The notes under the pieces were generated by a model. The model saw only the letters and a list, made by a program, of their open reading frames with translations. It was not told the DNA's origin and did not search any database. A stretch of DNA of 64,000 bases from Aliarcobacter lanthieri (GTDB lineage Bacteria; Campylobacterota; Campylobacteria; Campylobacterales; Arcobacteraceae), in contig NZ_CP053839.1 in assembly GCF_013201625.1 (NCBI RefSeq), positions 186,001 through 250,000 on the forward strand, given 5' to 3'. Below are positions 20,030 through 22,434 of this stretch, piece after piece. The position numbers and the translations under genes were made by a program. Position 1 is the first letter of the stretch; each line of letters begins with the position of its first letter.

Positions 20030-20106
<77 letters not shown>

Positions 20107-20333: not shown

Positions 20334-22163
20334 TTAAGCAATAACAGCTAGAGTTTGACCTTCTTCAACTGCTTTAGAAGGTTCAACAAGAATTTTAGTT
20401 ATTGTTCCTGAAACTGGTGCTGTAATATCTATCTCCATTTTCATAGCTTCTAAGATCATTATTTGTTGGTCTTTTTCTACTTTATCCCCTTCTTTTACAA
20501 GTATTTTCCATACATTACCATTTACTGCTGCTGGTACTTCTGTCCCATTATATACTGGTTTTGTAGGTACTTGTTGAACTGGCGTTGCTTGAACTGCTTG
20601 TTGTACAACCTGAGGTTGCACTACTGGCTGTGCTACTTGAATATTGTCTACTATTCCATCTGCTACTGTTACATTAAATCTTTGTCCATCTACTATTACT
20701 GTGTAATTCCCATTTGCCATTTTCTTTTCTCCTTTTTTATTAGTACAATTTTTAGTTTCATTTTTTCTTACATTTAAAGGGGCTTCACCTTTTAAAAATG
20801 CAATACCTTTTTCATCACAAGCAGCAGCTATAAAAATATTTTCTTCTGTTGCTTCTATTCCCTCTAGTTCTAATCTTTGTTTCCAAACATCAATTTTTTT
20901 CTTTGGATCAGCATCTGCTAAATCTAAAGGATTCTTTGTAGTTGGTTCAAGTTTTAACTTCTCACTTGCTAATTTTATAATATCTTTATCCGCTGGAACT
21001 GGTGTTTTACCAAAGTAACCTAAAACCATTCTTCCATACCCAGGTGCTATTTGTTTCCATGGGCCAAACATAACATTTGCATAAGCTTGTTGCCAATAAA
21101 ATTGTGAAACAGGTGTAACACTTGTTCCAAATCCACCTTTTATAACTACTTCTTGCATAGCTTTTATTACATCTGGGAATTTATCTAAAGTTCCATTATC
21201 TCTCATCATCTGCGTATTTGCAGTTAAAGCACCACCAGGCATTGGAGAGAATGGAATAAGTGGAGATACTTGAGTAGCTTCTGGTGGTAAGAAGTAATCT
21301 TTTAAACAATCAGCTAAAACTTCTTCATATTGAAGGATTTTATCTATTTGTAAACCACCTAAATCATAATTCATCCCTTTTGTTGCATGAAGAAGTGTTA
21401 GAATATCAGGTTGAGATGTCCCTCCACTAACTGGGCTTGCTGCTAAATCAATACCATCTGCACCTGCATCTAAAGCTGCCAAATAACAAGCAACTGAAAC
21501 TCCAGCAGTTTCATGAGTGTGTAATCTAATATGTATTTTATCACCTAAAAGCTTTCTAGCCATTTTTATAGTATCATAAACTTTTTGAGGACTTGAAGTA
21601 CCACTTGCATCTTTAAAACAAATAGAATCAAAAGGTAATCCACTATTTAGTATATCTCTTAGAGTTTTTTCATAAAATGGTACATCATGAGCACCAGTAC
21701 AGTTTGGTGGTAAGTCCATCAAAGTCACAACAACTTCATGTTTTAAACCATGATTTTTGATACATTGTGCAGAATATTCTAAATTTTGAACATCATTTAA
21801 AGCATCAAAATTTCTAATAGTAGTAGTTCCATGTTTTGCAAAAAGTTTTGCATGTAAGTCTATCAATTCTCTGCTTCCTGTATCTAGCATAACAGTATTG
21901 ATTCCACGAGCTAGAGTTTGTAAATTTGCATCTGGACCAACAATTTGCCTAAATCTATCCATCATATCAAATGCATTTTCTTGTAAATAGAAGAATAAAC
22001 TTTGGAATCTTGCTCCTCCACCAAATTCAAAGTGAGTTATTCCTGCCTCTTTTGCAGCTTCAACAGCTGGAAAAAAGTCATTCATTAATACTCTTCCTCC
22101 AAAGACTGATTGGAAACCATCTCTAAAAGTTGTATCCATAATATCAATATATTTTTTAGCCAT
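20334..22163 (-). CDS. oadA: Oxaloacetate decarboxylase/pyruvate carboxylase biotin subunit
   Basis: Carboxyltransferase of the OadA/PycB type fused to a biotin carrier. The TIM barrel (about 1-300) shows IMDTTFRDGFQS, TTTIRNFDALND, FKDASGT and the metal HTHETAG motif; the biotinyl domain ends the protein with ILEAMKMEI (biotin on that Lys). The start at 22163 has AAAGGAT seven bases upstream; the frame extends 11 codons further without such a site. oadG precedes it; oadB and biotin carboxylase are absent here, so decarboxylase pump versus pyruvate carboxylase subunit remains open. Residues just before Met482 are KKGEKK, encoded by a Shine-Dalgarno-like stretch. Confidence 0.92.
   Translation of the reverse strand: MAKKYIDIMDTTFRDGFQSVFGGRVLMNDFFPAVEAAKEAGITHFEFGGGARFQSLFFYLQENAFDMMDRFRQIVGPDANLQTLARGINTVMLDTGSRELIDLHAKLFAKHGTTTIRNFDALNDVQNLEYSAQCIKNHGLKHEVVVTLMDLPPNCTGAHDVPFYEKTLRDILNSGLPFDSICFKDASGTSSPQKVYDTIKMARKLLGDKIHIRLHTHETAGVSVACYLAALDAGADGIDLAASPVSGGTSQPDILTLLHATKGMNYDLGGLQIDKILQYEEVLADCLKDYFLPPEATQVSPLIPFSPMPGGALTANTQMMRDNGTLDKFPDVIKAMQEVVIKGGFGTSVTPVSQFYWQQAYANVMFGPWKQIAPGYGRMVLGYFGKTPVPADKDIIKLASEKLKLEPTTKNPLDLADADPKKKIDVWKQRLELEGIEATEENIFIAAACDEKGIAFLKGEAPLNVRKNETKNCTNKKGEKKMANGNYTVIVDGQRFNVTVADGIVDNIQVAQPVVQPQVVQQAVQATPVQQVPTKPVYNGTEVPAAVNGNVWKILVKEGDKVEKDQQIMILEAMKMEIDITAPVSGTITKILVEPSKAVEEGQTLAVIA
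20718..20734 (-). promoter_or_regulatory. Internal ribosome binding site and ATG in oadA
   Basis: AAGGAG at 20734-20729 is followed after 8 bases by an in-frame ATG at 20720. This ATG opens MANGNYTVIVDGQRFNV, the natural start of a biotin carrier protein. Translation from here would give a free 128-residue carrier from 20720 to 20334. It could also be the relic of a recent gene fusion. Confidence 0.6.
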
Positions 22164-22167
22164 ACTT

Positions 22168-22434
22168 CTATCCTTTAACTTTGTTATGATGCTCAATTGC
22201 TGCCATTATAGCAGCTACTTTTTTTGCATCTATTGAACTATTTGAAATACTAGGGTTTGTAATAGTATTATATATGATATTAGGAGCAGGTATCTCTAGT
22301 TTTTCTTTCTCAGGGAAAAACTCAACAAAAGATACCCCTTTTGCTTTCAGAATAAATCCAACAATTAGTAAAATTGTAGAAACTACACCCATTACTATAA
22401 AAAAGCTAGTAATAGCTTGAATTAGACTTTCCAC
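22168..22434 (-). CDS. oadG: Oxaloacetate decarboxylase gamma subunit
   Basis: 88-residue protein with one N-terminal membrane helix (about 8-30) followed by a proline- and asparagine-containing linker and a C-terminal IAAIMAAIEHH-type segment, as in OadG, which anchors the alpha subunit and coordinates zinc in Na+-pumping decarboxylases. It ends 5 bases before the preferred oadA start. The membrane beta subunit that pumps sodium is not in the window. Confidence 0.85.
   Translation of the reverse strand: MESLIQAITSFFIVMGVVSTILLIVGFILKAKGVSFVEFFPEKEKLEIPAPNIIYNTITNPSISNSSIDAKKVAAIMAAIEHHNKVKG

Follow-up and report, generated by a model that had tools for sequence, protein, structure and literature searches.

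A probable internal translation start at the biotin carrier border of oadA in Aliarcobacter lanthieri and its relatives

Our analysis indicates that the oadA gene of Aliarcobacter lanthieri probably contains a functional internal start at the border of its biotin carrier domain, such that one mRNA would give rise to both a 66.7-kDa transferase-carrier protein and a free 13.7-kDa carrier. In the proposed mechanism, initiation at the upstream ATG would generate the fused carboxyltransferase-carrier subunit, and ribosomes binding an internal Shine-Dalgarno (SD) sequence on the same mRNA would generate the free carrier, composed of an N-terminal beta-hairpin, a flexible linker and the biotin domain. 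The free carrier would presumably be biotinylated and dock on the transferase, so that each active site would be served by a larger number of carrier arms, as happens where the carrier is a subunit of its own. We infer initiation in the cell from conservation of the site, and a raised carrier-to-transferase ratio is a guess on our part.

An SD sequence and in-frame start codon precede the carrier domain of oadA

We analysed a stretch of 64,000 nucleotides of the 2.28-Mb A. lanthieri genome (contig NZ_CP053839.1), referred to here as the window. A sequence-only reading of this DNA had reported an SD sequence, eight bases and an in-frame ATG inside oadA, with the residues NKKGEKK read through the site and a 128-residue carrier downstream. 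All of these features were confirmed (Table 1). The eight bases between the SD and the ATG are AAAAGAAA, the residues translated across the SD are ...CTNKKGEKK-M, and the internal ATG is in frame with oadA and uses the same TAA stop codon (20336..20334, minus strand). The 3′ end of 16S rRNA is GGATCACCTCCTTTC at both copies examined in this genome, and its 18-base core is present five times in the genome. Because this end reads CCTCCTTTC, the internal SD can pair normally.

Table 1. Features of the oadA region in window coordinates
Feature	Position	Strand	Description
oadA/pycB-like gene	20334..22163	-	609 aa: carboxyltransferase (residues 1-458), linker and biotin carrier
Internal SD AAAAAAGGAG	20729..20738	-	Read in sequence; kept in relatives
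Internal in-frame start codon, ATG (Met482)	20718..20720	-	Read in sequence
Free biotin carrier ORF (candidate)	20334..20720	-	128 aa, 13.7 kDa; stop codon common with oadA
Linker housing the SD, residues 471-481	20721..20753	-	pLDDT < 50, probably disordered
oadG-like ORF	22168..22434	-	88 aa; directly 5′ of oadA, same strand
Terminator-like hairpin 3′ of the common stop codon	20298..20326	-	Motif scan

A promoter close ahead of the internal start was considered and rejected: the minus-strand consensus match closest to this start was at 21096-21067, and the region contained 10 such matches in total compared to 12.9 in shuffled sequences. Three terminator-like hairpins were found in the region, the mean in shuffles being 1.0, and a structured RNA scan of the region identified nothing known except a tRNA at 20030-20103. 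The oadG-like ORF was without an NCBIfam match. The nearest named relative by OadA-type protein is A. vitoriensis (96% identical).

The curated model that best fit the whole oadA protein was pyruvate carboxylase subunit B (PRK09282), followed by OadA (TIGR01108), with both scores under the respective cut-offs (313.1 vs 402 bits and 301.8 vs 756.5 bits). The biotin carrier domain (PF00364) scored above its cut-off at 71.3 bits, and the carrier contains the biotin motif (A/E)MKM in the form EAMKMEID. The closest solved sequence to the whole protein was transcarboxylase 5S and the closest to the carrier part was 1.3S, which are separate entries among the solved-sequence matches, and the closest fold was the two-subunit pyruvate carboxylase of Methylobacillus. 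The genome encodes two biotin carboxylases that are candidate partners for a PycB-like protein. Among the 25 families listed, the second of these (483 aa) scored above the cut-off only for the general acetyl-CoA carboxylase biotin carboxylase model, and its gene does not adjoin oadA.

In the structure model of the oadA protein (mean pLDDT 81), the transferase extends up to residue 458 and the low-confidence linker (471-482), of which Met482 is the final residue, ends three residues ahead of a hairpin (485-500). Residues 506-535 are again of low confidence and lead to the biotin domain (541-608). A product starting at Met482 would be a complete carrier resembling stand-alone MmdC; the MmdC model (NF047903) matched residues 7-127 of the 128-residue carrier with a score of 41.4 bits, under its cut-off of 200 bits. 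In 76 of 93 genes the internal Met is followed by Ala, Ser, Gly or Thr, residues ahead of which initiator Met is usually removed.

We compared the site with other internal in-frame ATGs in the 48 ORFs of the window and found an SD duplex of -8.9 kcal/mol or better at 2 of 259, both of which fall in oadA. The second (22085, minus strand; GGAGGAAGAGTATTAATG) is spelled by the near-invariant FGGRVLM motif, such that it is probably forced by the protein and hence useful as a negative control. From a count of two in 259, the other one being spelled by a protein motif, the site appeared commoner than chance. As one SD-plus-ATG site alone is weak evidence, relatives were examined, and it is conservation that carries the case.

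The internal start is conserved while the linker peptide varies

The oadA protein (query P0001) matched 145 of 150 related genomes and 166 of 200 genomes drawn from the phylum, with all of the matches listed for the latter coming from the same order. The loci that we examined come from part of the matching genomes (97 fused loci, two sets of 20 regions, and further loci). Fused genes were collected as 98 first (including that of the window), then 73 and 20, and collapsing of identical sequences gave 186 distinct proteins. Left out of this set were L191, in which the match ends at residue 531, and five loci in which the linker anchor was not found: L237, which has a Met before the hairpin; L242, L243 and L244, which have none; and L245, a contig end. 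The carrier-only loci L054, L056, L058 and L009 also stand outside the 186.

In 163 of the 186 proteins the linker has a start codon whose SD duplex is -5 kcal/mol or better, and in 149 the duplex reached -6. The start codon of the 163 is ATG in 152 cases and GTG in 11, and the SD occurs in all three codon phases (131, 30 and 2). The linker peptide is variable in both length and letters, with 109 different pentapeptides preceding the 163 starts; examples include GGA GAA AAT AAA ATG, CAG GAG CAA AAT ATG, GGA GGT AAT ATG, GAG GAG GTT TGT AAT ATG and AAG GAG AAA AGT GTG. Information per base was 1.0-1.4 bits at positions -12 to -8, where C and T are rare, with a second rise at the start codon. 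These rows are related by descent, and on a FastTree tree of the transferase part the presence/absence label needs at least seven changes rather than 163. When genes were grouped by genus label, 53 of 63 labels had the site in most members. Of the 186 rows, 165 carry such a label; six of the labels are names, the others are group codes, and the two kinds may overlap.

Several other properties of the site were examined. Glycine codons within the eight codons before the start are GGA in 70 of 91 cases, compared to 1245 of 3336 in the rest of the gene. In 87 of 93 genes the SD at the internal site outscores the one ahead of the oadA start (means of -7.7 and -4.4), and use of a shorter anti-SD reduced the count at -5 from 163 to 144 of 186. 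According to one paper, internal SD-like motifs may be inconsequential, with mRNA structure possibly shielding them (PMC6107199). Predicted folding of the 60 nt around the internal start is weak (-2.7 kcal/mol vs -8.6 kcal/mol for 1460 other in-frame ATGs). Compared to its own dinucleotide shuffles, the fold was weaker in 68 of 97 cases with a mean z of only +0.35, indicating that the weak fold is mostly a matter of base composition. Openness of the start region was dropped as evidence because the effect was nearly gone against shuffles of the same bases.

The sequence-only reading had suggested that one gene might give two products, and had named as a refuting result a linker of conserved sequence that lacks the purine-rich site across relatives, together with a single biotinylated band. 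For the linker we found the opposite, in that its peptide differs among relatives whereas the SD and the start codon persist, and the sequences argue strongly for two products.

Lineages without the site and the possibility of ribosome pausing

The site is absent in 23 of the 186 proteins. These are all 13 members of family f10, four of the seven members of f20 (genus g39), and one each of f4, f8, f9, f14, f17 and f22. Family f10 is probably Campylobacteraceae; five records that carry this label at NCBI, and are probably misplaced metagenome bins, have the site. Judged by eye, the f10 linkers are of similar length, and so the protein seems to need neither the Met nor the SD.

It is unlikely, in our estimate, that the SD-like stretch instead slows ribosomes between the two domains for folding or biotinylation, with no protein starting there. 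Pausing would be consistent with the position of the site at a domain border in the structure model, and with the 6 of 23 relatives lacking a usable start that still have an SD-like stretch (-7 kcal/mol or better). However, a start codon would be unneeded for pausing, yet one is kept at initiation spacing in 163 of 186 proteins, GTG replacing ATG in 11. Moreover, the other 17 of the 23 relatives without a usable start are also without an SD-like stretch of -7 or better.

We also inspected 15 distant OadA-type proteins, one of them Salmonella OadA. Only L326 has an ATG ahead of the carrier whose SD reaches -6 or better, and in L322-L326 GTG or TTG codons with SD values of -6.4 to -7.5 occur inside the carrier region. 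Separately, locus L335 (genome G129), from the same order, encodes an OadA-type transferase of 464 aa with no carrier domain at its end, which from its sequence is a split form of a distant relative.

OadB and the genes downstream of oadA do not account for the site

In the first set, pckA is downstream of oadA in 66 of 97 fused loci, and OadB lies between them in the loci where it was located. OadB (PF03977) gave no match in the A. lanthieri genome or in any of 10 further genomes tested from the genus, and is present in genomes G009 and G017 of the genus. The A. lanthieri genome has oadG and oadA without OadB, that is, a gamma subunit lacking its pump. A cross-table of 85 rows, which includes three f14 genomes added by hand, gave 42 with and 17 without OadB among rows having the internal start and 12 with and 14 without OadB among rows having no start (Fisher p 0.049, with the relatedness of rows ignored). 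Coupling of the internal start to OadB was rejected, as the association was too weak. OadB does not explain the start because Aliarcobacter without OadB keep it and four f14 with OadB have none.

A different kind of coupling is that the internal start adds ribosomes at the oadA stop codon and thereby boosts coupled translation of oadB or pckA. The gene order described above would fit, as would the carrier-only genes L009 and L054, each closely followed by a gene on the same strand. Three observations argue against it: a terminator-like hairpin follows the stop codon in the window, the site is still strong in a genome without an OadB match, and the carrier-only copy of L056 is followed by a gene on the opposite strand. 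We consider this explanation quite improbable.

The site is neither readily explained as a relic nor as chance

Another possibility is that the site is left over from an old fusion, having served as the SD of a carrier gene that formerly stood apart and now being read through without function. In the sister systems, methylmalonyl-CoA and glutaconyl-CoA decarboxylases, the transferase and the carrier are different subunits (PMC7274780). Nonetheless, a functionless SD would be expected to decay in a fast-changing linker, and its retention in 163 of 186 proteins despite a changing peptide makes a relic very unlikely.

We next considered chance occurrence in a linker rich in lysine and glutamate, since single SD-plus-ATG sites do occur by chance. 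Randomization was carried out for 2000 rounds on a first set of 88 non-redundant linkers, 87 of which have a start codon; for each linker the start codon with the strongest SD was picked, which introduces a mild bias. An SD of -6 kcal/mol or better was observed in 81 of the 87. The number expected was 36.3 (maximum 50) with synonymous codon resampling, 9.7 (maximum 21) with codon-order shuffling, and 6.7 (maximum 16) when resampling and shuffling were combined. Because synonymous resampling already yields 36 of 87, the peptide itself carries part of the SD signal, a result that counts in favor of chance. Against this, codon-order shuffles never exceeded 21. When a single row was used for each genus label (63 rows), an SD of -6 or better was present in 45 of the 57 rows with a start codon, compared to 6.9 (maximum 16) in shuffles. 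Of the other in-frame ATGs of the same genes, 110 of 1389 reached -6 in the first set. The full set gave 200 of 3011, with the conserved protein motifs GGRVLM and G(I/V)NTVM accounting for at least 145 of the 200. These results leave chance a highly improbable explanation.

Carrier-only genes begin at the position of the internal start

In several genomes of the genus oadA occupies two loci. Among the matches listed, stand-alone carrier genes were found in 4 of 31 genomes of the genus (A. lanthieri, G019, G023 and G008); four drafts among the 31 have matches cut at contig ends, and the draft genome taken to be that of A. vitoriensis had no such gene. The pckA locus of A. lanthieri consists of an OadG-like ORF, a 118-aa carrier alone (MANYTVIVDG...) and then pckA. 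This carrier is 79% identical to the oadA carrier part over the matched part, and the flanks of the gene are those of the full oadA-pckA loci in G005, G019, G023 and G008. In the latter three genomes it is the other locus that has only a carrier (MANGNYTVVVDG...) after oadG, with the same upstream neighbor as the full oadA in the window, in G005 and in others. The carrier-only genes have their own SD right behind the OadG-like ORF and begin MAN(G)NYTV, which is the N-terminus found at the oadA internal start.

In a tree of carrier DNA, the carrier-only copies of G019, G023 and G008 grouped together (support 96), and the A. lanthieri copy grouped with the copies of the window, A. vitoriensis and G005 (support 86). 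The presence of carrier-only genes in two tree groups indicates that the transferase part was lost at least twice with the internal N-terminus kept. Values of dN/dS were low (0.12-0.24) in the four pairs that include a carrier-only copy. From their sequences, these loci show that a carrier by itself can serve as a gene product there, which does not imply that a fused gene makes one.

Two side observations concern these loci. The OadG-like ORF ahead of one carrier-only gene (L009:9525-9731) appears by eye to carry its C-terminal motif (like AAIMAAIEHHNK) about three times, and its membrane segment seems to be gone. In addition, the paired oadA loci L044/L045, L059/L060, L063/L064, L065/L066, L069/L070 and L076/L077, each pair far apart in one genome, differ little or not at all in their carrier DNA, pointing to gene conversion or a recent duplication.

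The alternative offered by the sequence-only reading, that two genes had recently fused through loss of a stop codon, is hardly credible despite the separate carrier gene in the genome, because the relatives examined in the genus, family and order are fused and the carrier-only copies look like reductions, lying in loci where relatives have the full oadA. All 186 distinct proteins in the split-versus-fused comparison proposed in that reading were fused, although the parsing required a long match that could have passed over a split oadA. Among the matches listed in the 150 related genomes there was no clean split, and seven genomes had partial or broken matches, several at contig ends.

Discussion

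Internal in-frame starts that yield C-terminal products are already known elsewhere. As in the aspartokinase LysC alpha/beta system, an in-frame internal start would yield the C-terminal part of a protein as a separate subunit; LysC-beta is not known to carry a cofactor, whereas the second product of oadA would be the cofactor-bearing carrier. Retapamulin profiling in Campylobacter jejuni identified a putative start for LysC-beta within the gene, which agrees with Bacillus subtilis; the main text of the paper makes no mention of pycB (PMC11955535). Cas11 produced from an internal start in cas8 is likewise a small subunit encoded within a large-subunit gene, and elsewhere Cas11 is a separate gene or fused (PMC13199841, PMC11899642); that system is a defence complex rather than a metabolic one. 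Two-polypeptide phage endolysins also involve two in-frame ORFs with one common stop codon, and both polypeptides were shown to be made (PMC9430671). In contrast to oadA, endolysins are phage cell-wall enzymes. Among titles and the starts of abstracts of open-licence papers, we found no internal start for a biotin carrier or for OadA/PycB.

The transferase and carrier of transcarboxylase, 5S and 1.3S, are separate proteins. The carrier is also a separate subunit in the two decarboxylases discussed above (PMC7274780). Two genes are used in those enzymes, whereas one gene here appears to give both a fused and a free form. The classical oxaloacetate decarboxylase alpha subunit and the B subunit of two-subunit pyruvate carboxylase have the same domain order and are fused; the oadA protein is about 25-29% identical to them.

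A broader reading of our results is that oadA is a two-product gene in most sampled genera of the order, that the free carrier serves as an additional, diffusible arm, which the second biotin carboxylase might use too, and that some lineages kept only the free carrier from a spare copy, making this gene a living intermediate between split and fused forms. We regard this reading as evenly balanced between being correct and not.

Biotin enzymes have carriers that are either fused or separate. With a conserved internal start, a central metabolic enzyme would belong to both classes simultaneously, and many bacteria of the order would have a further protein, of about 13-14 kDa, that has been overlooked. 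Such a start would also provide a case in which carrier stoichiometry is tunable by one ribosome-binding site, for which the lineages without the site and the carrier-only lineages are ready-made comparisons.
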